Part shown: piece after piece, positions 23,182 to 35,736 of the stretch
How the letters are laid out: each line of letters begins with the position of its first letter
Numbering within the stretch: position 1 is the first letter of the stretch
Assembly (NCBI GenBank): GCA_024641785.1
Contig: JAHECK010000008.1
Location: 1 to 49,387, forward strand
From: Flavobacteriales bacterium
GTDB taxonomy: Bacteria; Bacteroidota; Bacteroidia; Flavobacteriales_D; JAHECK01
DNA: 49,387 bases
Direction of reading: 5' to 3'
The notes under the pieces: generated by a model
The model's input: only the letters and a program-made list of their open reading frames with translations
What the model was told of the DNA's origin: nothing
Database searches by the model: none
Translations under genes and position numbers: made by a program

Positions 23182-26100
23182 TTATTTAATCAATGTAACT
23201 GTCCCTATAACTTCTACTTTTTCAGTGCTTTGGCTAATTTTATAGGCTAAAGTATATACGAATACTCCGGGTTGAGAGTAATACTCGCTACCATTAACAG
23301 AGCCATTCCATTTTTCATTAATATTATTCGTCGAGAATACTGTATTTCCCCAACGATCAAAAATAGTTAGTTGGAAAAAGACCGGATCCAGTTCTTTAGC
23401 TTTTATGAAGAAATAATCATTTTTTCCATCCCCATTAGGTGAAAAAGAATTTGGTGCATAGAGTGTAAGATCTTCTTCGATCACTAACATTTTTGTAATG
23501 AAATCAGAACATCCATATTCATTGATTACTGTTAATCGATTAAAATATTCATCGGGGTTTTGATCAGGAAAAACAAAGAAAGGATTTTCCACATGTGCCT
23601 CACCTAATTGATTGATTGTATCGAAAAGCCAATAAGATTCTTCAAATCCAATTGATTCATTATTAAACTGAACAGTAGAATTGATCAGGGTAGGAATAGC
23701 AGGATTTGTAGAGAACTCTGCAAGCGGCTCTGGAAACATCGTAATTACATCTATGATCGTAGTGTCAAAAACACAACCATCAGGATCGGTAACCGATAAA
23801 GAAACATCATAATTACCACTTTCATAATAAATATGATCTACTGTATTTATTCCTGTTGAAATGCCTCCGTCACCAAAATTCCAGCTGGCAGATGCTACAC
23901 TCGCCGGATTTGTAGTATTAACAAAGCTTGCTAAATATGGAGGGCAACTTGCAGTATCAGAAGTAACCGAAAATGAAACCGGTACATATAAGGTTGGTGA
24001 TATTGTAATACAAGAATCAACAAATGGTGTTTCACACTGATCATTTACATGGACACAATAAACCGAAGGCTCAGATGGAATTACTATAATACTATCCTGA
24101 TCGATAATTAATCCATCTCCAATATCCCAGTATACATCATATCCAAAACCTTCTCCACCAATAATATTTTCTACTCCGATCATTAATTGTGAACCCGCAC
24201 ATATTATTTGATCGGGATCCATATCAAAGCTTATTAAATCACGAACTGAGACAAGAACCTGTTCTGTTTCCGAAACACATCCTAAATTATCTTGGGCATA
24301 AACCGAAAACACCGTATTGGTTATCAAACTATCTTTTGTTATGAATTGATTTGGTCCGGTGGTAAAATTATTAATTCCATCAGTCCAATACATGGTAAAA
24401 GGAGAACCCGTACCACCTTCAACAGATGCTGAAAGATAGGTTTCTCCAAAATAACAAATGGTTGAATCATTTACTGTTGTTACAAGAATAGAATCCGGGA
24501 CATCTACATAGACCACTTGAAGGTCAGGACAAGGACTCAATCCCGATAGGTCTTCAATCGAAATATTATATTCTCCTACATCTAAATTATTCAAAACAAC
24601 ATAATCTGAATTATTTACGATAGCCAGTACTGTTCCATTTGTATCTGAAATAATGTATTTCCATGGACCATAACCGATATCACCTTGAGTGGAAATTTCA
24701 ATAAAACCATCACCTCCAACACATGAAACGTTTCCAATAACAATATCATTTTGCATATTCGAATTTGAAGTAGGGATATCGATTAGAAAAACAGCGTGAC
24801 ATCCAGAATCATCATATACATCGACTTGTTGAATTCCTGCTGAAAGATTTCCAAATACAAAAATAGAATCATCATAAGCGTATTGATTTCCAACTTCGAT
24901 ATAAATTGGTTCTATACCGCCAATAACCTGAATAGCCATCTCACCTGTAGGCTGGGTATCTGCACAATCGGATGGGCTTATATCAATATCCAGACTCATC
25001 GCCAATCCTGTAACAAATGAGAAAGATTGCAAAGAATTTACATTTCCACAAAGGTCTTGTATACCACCATCAGAACCATTTAGACTTAATACATAAGATT
25101 GGTTTTCGAGCATTACTCCATCTAATAACATGTTGAAGGTAACTCCACCACCAAGTCCGGCATCGCACCAAGTACTTGAAGCACTAATAATATTTAATGT
25201 ACCACTAGCTCCTACAACTGTAAAATCAAGTTCTGAAAGAGAGGCACATGAAATTTGTTCTGAAAACGTTACCAGAACTTCATTATTTGCACAACTTGGA
25301 ACTACTGACTGAATTACTGGATTAGCATTGTCATTAATAGAAGCTGTTGATGCACTAAAATCGAGAGAAAAACCGGTTGTAGCAGATGCTTTTGAAATAA
25401 CCAAAGCATAAGTTTCGCCTGCAAGAACAGGCAGATCAGCATTATAAGGAATCAAATTTTCAATATTATTAATCCCTCCATTTGCAGTACTTATACCTGT
25501 GGGACCATTTCCCCAAAAACCATTACAGCTTGCAGTTGTAGCAGATGATAAAGTGGAGCAATCCAGTCCTGTAATATCGAGTAAAGACCAATTATAGTTG
25601 TTTGTTAATGGAGTTGAATTCAAATTGAAATTTAAATTTCCACTTGTGGTAACATCGAATACATACCATACAGAATTATTATCGATGACATTACATGCAC
25701 TAGCCGGAAATATATCCGTATAATTTCCGGATCCAGAAGGCGCAATAGTTTGAAGGTCATTAATGCCACAGATCGGCAAGGCCCCTAAACAATCTGCAAT
25801 TGTTGGAACGGGTTCTGAAGCACATTCCTGGCAATCGATCGTGGCCAACCATCCACTTGCTTCACTCCATCCATCGGAGGTGAATTTAAATGTTAAACAT
25901 TGATCAGAAGCCAGAACGGATCCAGGTCCAACCCCATTTCCATAAGTTCCGATAAGAGGATAAGCAGTAGAAGGACCATCATAAATTTTTAGATTATCTC
26001 CCCAAGTCACATCAAATTGAACAAAGTTGACAAATAAGCAATAGTTTGGATTCGGATTATCGGAGCATATTGTGGTAGTATAATTCTCTCCATTTTCATA

Positions 26101-26742
26101 ATTATCTCCTATATCTCCACTATCTACAAAAATATTACCACAGGTATTTACAGTCCCTCCGTTTGCAATATTTACCGGTTCCGGACAAGGAGTACAAATT
26201 CCACCGCAATCTACATCCAGTTCCATTCCATTTTCAATCCCATCATAACAAGTAGGACAAGGACCTCCACAAGTTACAATTGCGCTCCAACCATTACCTG
26301 TATTTAAGTTACCATTTGAAATAAAAACAAAAGTCAAACATCCCGAAGTCGACTGGATTCCGTTAGGATACAAAACCATTAAATTATTAACATTTGAACC
26401 AAAAGGATTATTGTACCTTCCAATATAGGTTCCACTGGTTGTATCAGCTCCATCCCATATATAAAGCCAATCTTGTCCATCCGGAATACTAAATTGGGTA
26501 AACTCCAATTGTATACATTGGCCCACCGTACTCGAACATAAGGTAACCATATAGGACTCATTATTTATGTAGAACTGATTATTATATGCATCAGAATCTG
26601 TAAAAGTTCCGCCACAGGTATTAATTGTATTGCCATCTTCAGTAGCAATATTATACACCTGGGCATATAAAGTCTGCATTCCAAATAGTATGCTAAGTAT
26701 AGTTGTTATCGTAATTCTCATTCTTTTTCTCTTAAAATCCAT
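23182..26742 (-). CDS. Secreted 1186-aa CUB/PKD protein with T9SS type-B C-terminal domain (paralog 2)
   Basis: Collinear with the 19444-23046 protein along its length; C-terminal LYAPNSFSPNGDGKNDYFF...IFDRWGNTVFST...KWNGSVNGSEYY. Confidence 0.9.
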   Translation of the reverse strand: MDFKRKRMRITITTILSILFGMQTLYAQVYNIATEDGNTINTCGGTFTDSDAYNNQFYINNESYMVTLCSSTVGQCIQLEFTQFSIPDGQDWLYIWDGADTTSGTYIGRYNNPFGSNVNNLMVLYPNGIQSTSGCLTFVFISNGNLNTGNGWSAIVTCGGPCPTCYDGIENGMELDVDCGGICTPCPEPVNIANGGTVNTCGNIFVDSGDIGDNYENGENYTTTICSDNPNPNYCLFVNFVQFDVTWGDNLKIYDGPSTAYPLIGTYGNGVGPGSVLASDQCLTFKFTSDGWSEASGWLATIDCQECASEPVPTIADCLGALPICGINDLQTIAPSGSGNYTDIFPASACNVIDNNSVWYVFDVTTSGNLNFNLNSTPLTNNYNWSLLDITGLDCSTLSSATTASCNGFWGNGPTGISTANGGINNIENLIPYNADLPVLAGETYALVISKASATTGFSLDFSASTASINDNANPVIQSVVPSCANNEVLVTFSEQISCASLSELDFTVVGASGTLNIISASSTWCDAGLGGGVTFNMLLDGVMLENQSYVLSLNGSDGGIQDLCGNVNSLQSFSFVTGLAMSLDIDISPSDCADTQPTGEMAIQVIGGIEPIYIEVGNQYAYDDSIFVFGNLSAGIQQVDVYDDSGCHAVFLIDIPTSNSNMQNDIVIGNVSCVGGDGFIEISTQGDIGYGPWKYIISDTNGTVLAIVNNSDYVVLNNLDVGEYNISIEDLSGLSPCPDLQVVYVDVPDSILVTTVNDSTICYFGETYLSASVEGGTGSPFTMYWTDGINNFTTGPNQFITKDSLITNTVFSVYAQDNLGCVSETEQVLVSVRDLISFDMDPDQIICAGSQLMIGVENIIGGEGFGYDVYWDIGDGLIIDQDSIIVIPSEPSVYCVHVNDQCETPFVDSCITISPTLYVPVSFSVTSDTASCPPYLASFVNTTNPASVASASWNFGDGGISTGINTVDHIYYESGNYDVSLSVTDPDGCVFDTTIIDVITMFPEPLAEFSTNPAIPTLINSTVQFNNESIGFEESYWLFDTINQLGEAHVENPFFVFPDQNPDEYFNRLTVINEYGCSDFITKMLVIEEDLTLYAPNSFSPNGDGKNDYFFIKAKELDPVFFQLTIFDRWGNTVFSTNNINEKWNGSVNGSEYYSQPGVFVYTLAYKISQSTEKVEVIGTVTLIK

Positions 26743-30540: not shown

Positions 30541-31839
30541 TTATTTTGTTGTTATTAAAATGGTTCCTTTATAAACGGATCCATCTTCGGTTATGACTGA
30601 CCAGGCATAGGCCCCTTCATTCATTTTATTTCCATTATTCATAAATCTTCCATTCCATGGAAGTTCAAAATTACTCGTTTCAAATATCATTTGACCTGAT
30701 TTAGGATCATAGATCTTCAAAGTAAAACCTTGATTCAAATAAGGGATTGCTTGTGGAATGAAAGTGTCATTAATTCCATCACCATTTGGTGAAAACGCAT
30801 TTGGTGCAAGCAGATTAAAGTCATTTTCTATTATGAAATGAGTAAAGGCTGTATCGCTGCATTGAAATTGATTGAATACTACTAAGCCAACAGAGTAGCT
30901 TCCTTTCTTAGCGAAGATTTTTTCAACCACTTCTTTATTCTCAATTCTTTCATCATTAAAGATCCACTCCAAAGAAGAGGAATTCTCACTTTCTGAATTA
31001 AAAGTAACTTTTGGATTGGCGAGCATGTTATCTCCCATTTTCATATCGAATTCTGCCGATGGAATTGAATTCACTTGAATAGAATAGCTTTCGTTTAGAA
31101 TCCGATCTTCGTATAACACAGATTTAGCACTCAGCTTCAATAAGTAGTTTCCTGCCTCACTATAAACATGAACCGCAGTTGGTCCTTCAGCACTGCTTCC
31201 ATCACCGAAATCCCAATGGATCTCCACCGGCTCATTTGAATTCGCAAGGGATAGCATCAGCATTTCATTCAAACAGATAGTCTGCGCATTGATGTGAATA
31301 CCAATACTTAACTTTTCTGTTTCATCTTCCTTTTGAATTAAAATAAGCTCTTTTTCTTCCGCTTTAGTATTTTTATCTACTTTACTTCCTACTGCAGATC
31401 CATCGTTCAACTCTTTTGGAGCATTTGCTTCTTTTTCAACTACAGAAGTATTTTTTTCTTTTTCCTTATTGACAAGAGGAAGGATCACTTCATTCGTTTG
31501 ATCTTCCATTTCTAGATTATTGTGATCTTCTACATTCTCACTATTTTCATCTACTTCAATTGATGGATCAACTGGCGTGATCTCGACTGAGTTCTCTGGA
31601 GGAGTACTAACAGGAAGAGTGCTCATACCCGGATCATATGCAAAATAGGCTATGATAATAGCTGCGGCCACTGTAGCGGAAATAATTCCTATTCTCCAAT
31701 TTGTGAATGGAGAATTCGGTTTTACATTGATCTTACTTTCAATGTTTTTCCAGGCTGTGTCATCAAAAGGCACATCATACTTATTGATCGCTTCACGTAT
31801 CTTCTGATCAAATAGTTTTGGATTATCCATAAGTTTCAT
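30541..31839 (-). CDS. Single-pass membrane protein: anti-sigma-like cytoplasmic N-terminus, TM (~31639-31695), PKD + CHU_C-like extracytoplasmic region
   Basis: FDQKIREAINKYDVPFDDTAWKNIESKI; TM NWRIGIISATVAAAIIIAYFAY; PKD IHWDFGDGSSAEGPTAVHVYSEAGNYLLKLS; C-terminal NLLAPNAFSPNGDGINDTF...LKIYDPKSG...LPWNGRF; start overlaps the sigma gene stop by 17 nt. Confidence 0.8.
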   Translation of the reverse strand: MKLMDNPKLFDQKIREAINKYDVPFDDTAWKNIESKINVKPNSPFTNWRIGIISATVAAAIIIAYFAYDPGMSTLPVSTPPENSVEITPVDPSIEVDENSENVEDHNNLEMEDQTNEVILPLVNKEKEKNTSVVEKEANAPKELNDGSAVGSKVDKNTKAEEKELILIQKEDETEKLSIGIHINAQTICLNEMLMLSLANSNEPVEIHWDFGDGSSAEGPTAVHVYSEAGNYLLKLSAKSVLYEDRILNESYSIQVNSIPSAEFDMKMGDNMLANPKVTFNSESENSSSLEWIFNDERIENKEVVEKIFAKKGSYSVGLVVFNQFQCSDTAFTHFIIENDFNLLAPNAFSPNGDGINDTFIPQAIPYLNQGFTLKIYDPKSGQMIFETSNFELPWNGRFMNNGNKMNEGAYAWSVITEDGSVYKGTILITTK

Positions 31840-32407
31840 TGTATGCTTTATGCAAATATTTTCTTAAATTTTGTTTGGCTTTCGCCAGATTCGATTTTGA
31901 AGTTCCAACACTTATATTTAGCATTTCTGCTATCTCTTTATGTGAATATTCCTCTATAACATATAAACTAAATACGGCTTTATAAGCCGGAGTTAATTTT
32001 TGAATCGCATCCATTACCAGTTTTGGATCTAATTCACCTTCTACTTCGAAAGGGTCCATCTCCTTATCTGAAAAAGCATCCATTTTATCATCTTCACCTA
32101 AAAGAATATGATCTTTCTTTTTTCTACGAATATTATCAATGGCATTATTCACGAATATTCTTCTCATCCAACCTTCAAAAGAACCTTTGAACTCATATCG
32201 CTTCAAATTTTTGAAGACTTTAATAAAACCTTCCTGAACCATATCGTTTGCTTCTTCCCTATCCTTGGAATATCTTAAACAAACAACCGTCATGTTCTTA
32301 TAAAACATTTCGTATAACCGGTATTGAGCTTTTTGCTCATTTCGCAAACAGCCTTCAATTATCGGTTTTAGTTCTTCTTTTCTTATATTTTCGCTATATG
32401 AATTCAC
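31823..32407 (-). CDS. ECF-type RNA polymerase sigma-70 family factor (GTG start)
   Basis: YSKDREEANDMVQEGFIKVFKNLKRYEFKGSFEGWMRRIFVNNAIDNIRR (region 2); LTPAYKAVFSLYVIEEYSHKEIAEMLNISVGTSKSNLAKAKQNLR (region 4). Confidence 0.93.
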   Translation of the reverse strand: MNSYSENIRKEELKPIIEGCLRNEQKAQYRLYEMFYKNMTVVCLRYSKDREEANDMVQEGFIKVFKNLKRYEFKGSFEGWMRRIFVNNAIDNIRRKKKDHILLGEDDKMDAFSDKEMDPFEVEGELDPKLVMDAIQKLTPAYKAVFSLYVIEEYSHKEIAEMLNISVGTSKSNLAKAKQNLRKYLHKAYNETYG

Positions 32408-32612
32408 TTTGATAACGATACCTTTCTTTATAGGTTGCCAAGAGATTTAATTAGTTTGGCTAAATATACAATCCTAATTGAAAAAAAGGAGTGAAAGCCC
32501 TTTTAATTAAGACTTGTTTCACAAAAAATTACGCTTTCGTTATTCTATAAATTTTGACTTACAAAAAAGTGTCTTTGGTGATTAAAATCATGCCCATCGT
32601 ATTTTTTCTTTT

Positions 32613-32629: not shown

Positions 32630-33586
<957 letters not shown>

Positions 33587-33702: not shown

Positions 33703-35736
33703 TTACTTATCTAGAATTTCTTTTGCTTCTTCTACTGTGATGATCTTATCATTAAATGATCCAACCACAAATCCATCTAAACCATCTTTTAATAATTCTT
33801 TTTTCCTTTTCTCGGCTTCATCATAGGTCTTGTAATTTCCAACAAGGTATTTTGTTAAACCTTCCTGGCGTACCGTTTTAACATCCCCTATGGTGATTAA
33901 TTTATCCATAACATCAGCAGGGATATGGTCTTTATATGCTCCTACTTGGATTTTAAAGCTCACTTTCTCTTTATCCATACTATCCTGAGGAACATCTCCT
34001 ACTTTCTCAACTTTATGACCCGCTGTTTCCAAGCTAATTCTTTGTCCATTTCGATATGCAACAATGAATGATCCTTCAAATCCCTCCAATAAAACATCGA
34101 TCTTACGATTTGCTGCATCTTGAATATTACGGTAAGAACCTGTTAAATATCGAGTTAATCCATCATCTCCTTGCAATTCAATAAGATCATTTACCCCTTC
34201 GAAAACATTTTTAGAAATCGGATTTTTAAAGGCCCCTATTTGGACACGATAGATCACGTCTTTAGAGATCAGAGATTCGTTTCCACTAAATCCGCCTTCT
34301 AAACGGTAGGCATCTTCTATGGTTTGTGCTTCCGGACCTATGATCGTTTGCTTATCATCAACAATTGAGATAACTACTCCATCGATACCATCTACTTCAA
34401 GCAATATTTTTTGCTCGATTGCATCTTCCAACTCATCATATTTTCCAACCAAATAAAGTGTTTGATTTGAATCATTTCGGATCTCAACATTTGGAATACT
34501 AAGTATCTTTCCAATTTGCTCAATGCTTTGGTCTTCGGTTGAAGTCGCTACCTGAACGCTAAAATACTTTTCATGAGGACGTGGTGTATGCACCGTTCTT
34601 CTTCCACTTTCATTACTTGTATATACTGTTTTTATCACATTGAATTCTCCAATCGTATCAATATAAGTAAGATATAAATTATAAAAATCGTCGTCGGTAT
34701 ATGCCACTCCGCTTGTGTCAACAAAGCTTCCTGTTGGAGTATTCAATTCTAAGTCTTTATAATCAGGTACAAAATCACCATCTCCATCTAATGGGCATCC
34801 TTTTTCATCTACTACGACTCCTTCGGGTGTAAATGGACAATCATCACTTAGATCAGGGACACCATCTTGATCTTCATCTTCCAACAGGCTAAGTGATTCT
34901 TCAAGTTTCTTTTTTCTGTTCTCATTAAAGGCAGGAATATCATAACTCAAAGTAAGCGATGTATATAAATAACGATCATTAGCTCCTGAAGAAATATTAT
35001 CAATATTATCGGTGAAAGTAAAATTCATTATAGAGCTTAACTGAAGGGAGAAGCCATAGTCAAGGGTGATATCTGCACCAATTCCTACCGGTATTGCCAG
35101 TGAACTTAATTCGTAATTCCCAAGATCGTCGGTATTAAGAGAGCGAAGATCGGTTTCATAATAATTATCACGGATCAATAAAATAGCCTGATCTGCATTT
35201 GAACTGTTTTCAGGTAGATCTCTAATACTTCCATCCGACCAGTAATTATAAACCCTTCCTTTAGCGTCCATCAAATCTGTTTTCGAATTGAATTCAACAT
35301 TTGAGATACCCAGAATAAATAAGGGATGAACCTTTGGTGAATTTTTAAATAGATTATCGAAATTATAGCTAAATAAGAGTCCGCCTGAGAGGATCTCTGA
35401 TCTGAAGTTAGCATGACTGGTCAGAGTGTTTTCATTGAACGCGATCCAGCCACTATTAAAGAACAGGGATGCGTTTAAATAATCTGTAACATGAATACCT
35501 ATACCCAAATTCATCCCCATATTCCCCATCACTGCATTCGTTCCGGGATAACGATACATATCTCCATAATAGGTCATAGGCCCCCCGCCAAAACTTACGA
35601 AAGGACGAATATTTAATTCCTTTGTTTGTTCGGTCAACAGGATCTCATCTTCAACAATATCCAGACTATCCTGCTGAGCAAGAATAAGCTGAGTAAATGA
35701 AAAGAAAATGAATATGCTAAGTATCAGTCGTCTCAT
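33703..35736 (-). CDS. Outer-membrane-like beta-barrel + thrombospondin type-3-like linker + three SPOR-like repeats
   Basis: Signal peptide; RPFVSFGGGPMTYYGDMYRYPG; DQDGVPDLSDDCPFTPEGVVVDEKGCPLDGDGDFVPDYKD; YFSVQVATS / IYRVQIGAFKN / SFKIQVGAYKD repeats. Confidence 0.8.
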   Translation of the reverse strand: MRRLILSIFIFFSFTQLILAQQDSLDIVEDEILLTEQTKELNIRPFVSFGGGPMTYYGDMYRYPGTNAVMGNMGMNLGIGIHVTDYLNASLFFNSGWIAFNENTLTSHANFRSEILSGGLLFSYNFDNLFKNSPKVHPLFILGISNVEFNSKTDLMDAKGRVYNYWSDGSIRDLPENSSNADQAILLIRDNYYETDLRSLNTDDLGNYELSSLAIPVGIGADITLDYGFSLQLSSIMNFTFTDNIDNISSGANDRYLYTSLTLSYDIPAFNENRKKKLEESLSLLEDEDQDGVPDLSDDCPFTPEGVVVDEKGCPLDGDGDFVPDYKDLELNTPTGSFVDTSGVAYTDDDFYNLYLTYIDTIGEFNVIKTVYTSNESGRRTVHTPRPHEKYFSVQVATSTEDQSIEQIGKILSIPNVEIRNDSNQTLYLVGKYDELEDAIEQKILLEVDGIDGVVISIVDDKQTIIGPEAQTIEDAYRLEGGFSGNESLISKDVIYRVQIGAFKNPISKNVFEGVNDLIELQGDDGLTRYLTGSYRNIQDAANRKIDVLLEGFEGSFIVAYRNGQRISLETAGHKVEKVGDVPQDSMDKEKVSFKIQVGAYKDHIPADVMDKLITIGDVKTVRQEGLTKYLVGNYKTYDEAEKRKKELLKDGLDGFVVGSFNDKIITVEEAKEILDK

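Follow-up and report, generated by a model that had tools for sequence, protein, structure and literature searches.

The type B C-terminal domain (CTD; CHU_C) is a Bacteroidota tag on proteins that are exported by the type IX secretion system (T9SS), and how cells sense the state of this system is, to our knowledge, an open question. The PorP/SprF proteins are binding partners of type B CTDs, and export of these CTDs has depended on them where tested (PMC9143113, PMC12618676); predicted complexes of cognate CTD-shuttle pairs are reported at ipTM values above about 0.8 (PMC12618676). In the PorXY-SigP system of P. gingivalis, control of the sigma factor runs through PorX, and the CTD protein PorA is located at the surface (PMC7712824). 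Class I anti-sigma domains have been reported near only 6% of Bacteroidetes ECF sigma factors (PMC7406223). The Dma (dual membrane-spanning anti-sigma) proteins, which are encoded beside a cognate ECF sigma factor of group ECF21, combine an N-terminal segment, a transmembrane (TM) helix, a long disordered tether and an outer-membrane barrel, and are reported to extend to the outer membrane from an anchor in the cytosol (PMC13088901); they are also the subject of Pardue et al. 2024, known here through its citation in PMC13088901.

The window considered here is the whole stretch of 49,387 nt of contig JAHECK010000008.1 from a Flavobacteriales bacterium (assembly GCA_024641785.1), in which an ECF sigma gene overlaps the gene of a 432-aa protein (Table 1). 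The sigma factor has only sigma-70 regions 2 and 4 (Pfam, NCBIfam), as is characteristic of the ECF group, and its complete orthologues are 41-79% identical. The original prediction described the two genes as a sigma/anti-sigma pair sharing 17 nt, the second protein having a PKD, PKD-like and CHU_C-like order outside the membrane; the overlap (31823-31839) and the domain order are borne out by the coordinates, Pfam/NCBIfam and AlphaFold2, and the pairing itself is supported by the overlap and by conserved adjacency.

Table 1. Features of the sigma/anti-sigma locus and its neighborhood (positions in the window)
Feature	Position	Strand	Evidence
ECF sigma factor, 194 aa, GTG start	31823..32407	-	Pfam Sigma70_r2 54 bits, r4_2 60 bits; TIGR02937 102 bits
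Proposed anti-sigma factor, 432 aa	30541..31839	-	17-nt sigma overlap; adjacency in relatives
Predicted cytoplasmic anti-sigma segment, residues 9-38, two helices, invariant W30	31726..31815	-	AlphaFold2, hhalign
Transmembrane helix, residues 48-67	31639..31698	-	Hydropathy, AlphaFold2 helix, charge bias, no cleavage site
Disordered tether, residues 68-178	31306..31638	-	pLDDT mostly <50
PKD domain 1, residues 179-257	31069..31305	-	PKD_4/PKD in 25/25 orthologues; pLDDT mostly >90
PKD-like domain 2, residues 258-337	30829..31068	-	Second PKD stretch
CHU_C-like (type B CTD-like) domain, residues 338-432	30544..30828	-	CHU_C, TIGR04131; one clade
Loop 378-382, DPKSG where cargo has (D/N)RWG	30694..30708	-	RWG comparison
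ECF-type promoter motif GGCAAC-N16-CGTT before sigma gene	32414..32439	-	Motif search
Type B cargo protein 1, 1256 aa	26748..30518	-	CHU_C 60 bits; 22 nt after anti-sigma gene
Type B cargo protein 2, 1186 aa (CUB, PKD, CHU_C)	23182..26742	-	5 nt gap
Type B cargo protein 3, 1200 aa	19444..23046	-	TIGR04131 46.9 bits, CHU_C 78 bits; 135 nt gap

The two-gene system is conserved across many Bacteroidia families. Full-length relatives of the 432-aa protein were found in several families of the order in a search of 59 relatives, and a sigma gene adjoins them in the examined loci, except for one that is ended by a contig edge. A survey of this adjacency had been suggested with the original prediction; a profile search of 390 genomes of the class, in which the profile was built from 25 orthologues and the first few matches are its own members, returned many full-length matches of ~400-475 aa from a dozen or more families. 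Among the best 30 full-length matches an ECF sigma gene lies directly upstream in all 30 (gap -29 to +75 nt), and the genes overlap or abut in 57 of 75 pairs, so that the pairing appears to be beyond chance. In a separate scan of named genomes with a sigma profile, 80 loci were detected, for instance in Cryomorpha ignava, Brumimicrobium, Fluviicola and metagenome-assembled genomes (MAGs) of Vicingaceae and Crocinitomicaceae, and the gene following the sigma gene encodes a CHU_C-domain protein in 50, another kind of protein in 29 and none called in one. One record, titled Glaciecola amylolytica (locus L071, CP034120.1), carries a sigma factor that groups with Flavobacteriales and is probably mislabeled, and the MAG titles Chryseobacterium gleum, Chitinophaga pinensis and Kuenenia look doubtful as well. 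Several of the trees were quick searches with long branches flagged; in the sigma tree all 76 CHU_C-type sigma factors form one clade (support 86), which joins seven PorP-type and two short-type sigma factors (support 97), and the sigma factor of the window is placed beside those of barrel-type pairs.

AlphaFold2 (25 orthologues) gave helices at residues 7-19 and 27-37 at low confidence (pLDDT about 48-63), a TM helix at 48-67, low confidence over 66-172 and a well-predicted part at 179-432. The N-terminal segment, with its invariant W30, is tandemly repeated in some relatives (L043, L044, L048, L049), and the tether, ~110 aa long here and about 100 aa across the family, is rich in N/E/S/T/K. 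The HxxxCxxC zinc (ZAS) motif, already noted as missing in this protein, was found in none of 75 orthologues, with no cysteine in residues 1-45; in addition, the Pfam anti-sigma models had no match in the 432-aa protein, and no FecR domain was matched in Pfam or NCBIfam at E<=0.1. Comparison of the N-terminal profiles of CHU_C-type, barrel-type and short-type partners by hhalign gave probabilities of about 96%, the E-values being those of a single comparison, and by these profiles the N-terminus is homologous to that of the barrel-ended sigma partners, which have the Dma plan. Thus the proposal of a different anti-sigma type holds for the lack of zinc ligands and fails for its novelty. Given the adjacency and overlap of the genes and this N-terminal homology, the 432-aa protein is very probably the cognate anti-sigma factor of the ECF sigma factor encoded by the overlapping gene.

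The relatives with a barrel contain an OMP_b-brl_2 domain in 13 of 16 proteins. For one of them (L115), AlphaFold2 predicted segment helices that run into the TM helix, followed by ~118 disordered residues and a barrel, and Foldseek matched this barrel to OmpA/OmpW-type structures. The genome of the window has a second sigma/anti-sigma pair (L147:3551-5804, G000:C40), the anti-sigma of which is a 561-aa protein with a similar N-terminus, a TM helix at 49 and a barrel-like end with a weak OMP_b-brl match (20 bits). Chitinophagales-type relatives of the sigma factor are followed by short TM proteins of ~190-330 aa with a related N-terminus (L105, L109, L112, L116, L119, L120, L122, L127, L131, L135, L136).

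The TM helix was originally predicted to remain uncleaved, and this is supported by two features of the sequences: an AXA/Q-type cleavage site is seen in two of 75 anti-sigma proteins vs 37 of 44 cargo proteins, and the net charge is +2.0 before the helix and -0.8 after it. By cleavage pattern and charge, the helix is therefore an uncleaved anchor. The same counts bear on the reading of the protein as T9SS cargo in which the n-region of the signal peptide is unusually long and whose gene merely shares a transcript with that of a sigma factor under some other control. Such cargo would have the CHU_C and PKD domains seen here and could share an operon with other cargo, but its N-terminus would not be expected to be homologous to that of barrel-type sigma partners or to be duplicated in some members, nor its gene to be strictly adjacent to those of one clade of sigma factors; the reading was rejected on the N-terminal homology and the cleavage-pattern counts, and we regard it as extremely improbable.

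The outer part of the protein resembles type B cargo by its domain matches, namely PKD_4 with 64 bits, CHU_C with 50 bits (cut-off 27) and TIGR04131 with 38 bits (cut-off 35), and CHU_C was matched in 20 of 25 orthologues. An RWG motif, a mark of cargo found in this analysis and not a published definition, is nevertheless absent from all 76 anti-sigma CHU_C domains vs present in 44 of 45 cargo domains at the same loci; as these sequences are related, a p-value computed from the counts overstates the contrast. Of the 29 other CHU_C domains in the genome of the window, 20 carry RWG and the remainder are mostly near-variants. All 76 anti-sigma domains, the truncated L057 copy counted among them, fall on one side of a branch of the CHU_C tree with support 90, and the same split has support 95 when cargo and lipoproteins of the window's own genome are added; these trees rest on a short alignment and did not resolve which group is sister to the anti-sigma clade. 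From its own clade and the loss of RWG, it appears that the anti-sigma CHU_C domain has left the cargo lineage, which agrees with the original view of a CHU_C-like domain set apart from cargo on a non-cleaved membrane anchor. The PNGDG motif is degraded as well in some lineages, and the domain therefore need not bind the same partner everywhere.

The further claim that an inner-membrane-anchored protein cannot be exported by the T9SS is not established, as Dma proteins with a cytosolic anchor are reported to extend to the outer membrane, and a tether of ~110 aa could span that distance too. Nor is the loss of RWG alone a proof of lost export, because CHU_C domains without RWG are also found in small PorP-linked lipoproteins. 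It is conceivable that CHU_C is a working T9SS signal, the C-terminus being threaded through or held at the translocon, so that the protein would cross both membranes with PKD-CHU_C on the surface, where an external ligand or force would free the sigma factor. The reported span of Dma from outer membrane to cytosol (PMC13088901), a tether long enough by length alone, and the CHU_C fold with several motifs kept and scores above the cut-offs in the 432-aa protein are all in line with such threading. However, RWG is missing from every one of the 76 anti-sigma domains although nearly all cargo domains of these loci have it, and in F. johnsoniae mutation of any of five conserved type B motifs, of which RWG may be one, stopped export (PMC12618676); a threaded, working signal is accordingly improbable.

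A connection with the T9SS beyond shared domain names, as first proposed, is supported by the sister clade of the sigma factors (seven sequences, support 100), in which the anti-sigma proteins combine several N-terminal repeat matches and a TM helix with a PorP/SprF barrel, and by the type B cargo in the operon. The fusions occur in genomes G172, G144, G069, G220, G109, G240 and G261, the copy in G197 is interrupted by masked sequence, and a further PorP fusion (L286, G326) lies on a long branch among barrel-type sigma factors; Pfam matches to PorP/SprF were 46-114 bits in six tested fusions, L286 included. In the four cases tested, the product of the gene after the fusion is small, begins like a lipoprotein and contains CHU_C. 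We consider it fairly likely that the anti-sigma factor has a T9SS-linked input, with which the presence of SprA in 58 of 59 genomes that encode the full-length protein is in line. The PorP/SprF-fusion loci beside sigma genes are L280-L288 (e.g. L282:1471-3366, minus strand), and small CHU_C-like proteins without RWG adjoin PorP/SprF genes in L280, L281, L282, L284, L285, L286, L289, L290 and L291. Elsewhere in the window, positions 33703-35736 encode a protein of 677 aa, in which a weak PorG-like match and repeats resembling SPOR domains were seen.

For the control of the locus, 60 of 75 sigma genes are preceded by the motif GCAAC-N16-CGTY, which lies 6-41 nt ahead of the start of sigma homology and has only 11 matches elsewhere in 1.02 Mb of loci. 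It also precedes the sigma genes of L077, L082 and L088; no copy was seen before barrel-type sigma genes. This promoter-like motif before the sigma gene suggests autoregulation. A genome-wide regulon was rejected, as the counts were hardly above the reversed control (two matches vs two in the window's own genome, and 83 vs 70 in 25 relatives). Some intergenic matches precede large secreted proteins, one of them with SprB repeats; these regions were hand-picked and are suggestive only. In four genomes of a single family, L239, L240, L241 and L242 have two copies of the motif ~80 nt apart, one of them inside the end of an ORF, L243 has one copy, and no clear target gene was seen for the doubled motif of L239-L242. 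Divergently upstream of the sigma gene lies a malate dehydrogenase-like gene (32651-33586 in the window), also in many families, and other families have an mnmA-like gene upstream of it, both neighbors being named from sequence starts only.

The three downstream proteins were described as ending in CHU_C, and Pfam/NCBIfam agree. With gaps of 22, 5 and 135 nt, the sigma pair and these three type B cargo genes are likely to form one operon. The downstream run varies among the 75 loci: CHU_C cargo follows in 18, another long gene in 22 (some ended by a contig edge and some mutL-like), none in 26 and other genes in three, and six loci are too short. Cargo genes are therefore not a universal target: in 26 of the 69 loci that are long enough to judge, no gene on the same strand follows within 300 nt, and in some loci a mutL-like gene comes next. 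Downstream genes of 605-615 aa were considered as T9SS parts and rejected, their N-termini looking like mutL. In these operons, a family of proteins of ~140 aa with signal peptide-like starts is encoded ahead of the cargo genes or in between them (L039:11831-12247, L041:11835-12245, L053:11687-12139, L051:4367-4798, L057:1210-1638), with no NCBIfam match in the two tested.

These data may also be read as an ordinary membrane anti-sigma factor that uses a cargo-derived Ig/PKD-like sensor for an unrelated envelope signal and has no T9SS role today. The loss of RWG, and of the PNGDG loop in some lineages, the separate clade of the CHU_C domain and the downstream genes that are not always cargo would all suit such a sensor. 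So would the poor separation by T9SS presence of genomes with and without the pair: SprA occurs not only in the genomes having the full-length protein but also in most others, and its presence is uninformative as a discriminator; most genomes without the pair have a T9SS too. However, an unrelated signal would leave two coincidences, the fusion of PorP/SprF to this N-terminus among partners of the sister sigma clade, where a CHU_C gene adjoins it, and the occurrence of type B cargo in the operons of 18 of 75 loci, and we judge this reading to be unlikely.

We favor, with a probability of roughly 0.6, a Dma-like trans-envelope anti-sigma factor whose outer end is a retired type B signal and which controls cargo by secretion status. 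The tether would let the CHU_C-like end reach the outer membrane, where a PorP/SprF-type shuttle or the T9SS itself may serve as its docking site on the periplasmic side; to docking on a PorP/SprF-type barrel we give slightly less than even odds. A build-up of type B cargo or a changed state of the machine might then alter the docking, upon which the N-terminus would free the sigma factor by proteolysis or force. The freed sigma factor would transcribe its own operon from GGCAAC-N16-CGTY, including the three type B cargo genes here. Sigma binding, the docking partner, the signal and the release are steps that we infer. The original interpretation stands in part, namely for the pair, the non-zinc N-terminus, the anchor, the departure of CHU_C and the T9SS link, and needs qualifying for an N-terminus of novel type and for the exclusion of export.

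Tentatively, and with somewhat more doubt than confidence, we propose a trans-envelope anti-sigma class with a built-in CHU_C or PorP/SprF domain, in which docking is the input and a gauge of type B traffic sets cargo expression. The cell may in this way read the T9SS or its cargo directly into gene expression. As the system points to a concrete sensor, to PorP/SprF as its probable partner family, to target genes and to a promoter motif, a feedback from secretion to cargo expression is directly testable, and if true the Dma idea would be widened to take in a secretion signal and its shuttle besides the outer-membrane barrel. A literature search found no description of a PKD-CHU_C anti-sigma system, although the 2024 Dma paper may mention such variants.

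With regard to known systems, the protein shares with T9SS type B cargo (CHU_C, TIGR04131; SprB type) a PKD and CHU_C C-terminus above the curated cut-offs, and differs from it by the lack of a cleavable Sec signal peptide and of RWG, by its own clade and by its place beside a sigma gene. PorXY-SigP/PorA likewise brings together an ECF sigma factor and a CTD-bearing protein in T9SS regulation, but PorA is not a membrane anti-sigma factor, SigP being compared by description only. The class I anti-sigma factors (RseA, RskA, ChrR, RsiW; PMC7406223) similarly have a short helical N-terminus, often before a TM helix, whereas the 432-aa protein has neither a Pfam anti-sigma match nor a zinc motif. 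The likeness is greatest in plan to Dma, with a cognate ECF sigma factor beside the gene, an N-terminal segment predicted to bind it, a TM helix and a long disordered tether; this comparison rests on the published architecture and on the barrel-ended pairs found here. The protein ends in PKD-PKD-CHU_C and has no C-terminal outer-membrane beta-barrel, and it is therefore not filed as Dma but is a variant on the Dma plan, with PKD-PKD-CHU_C in the place of the barrel.
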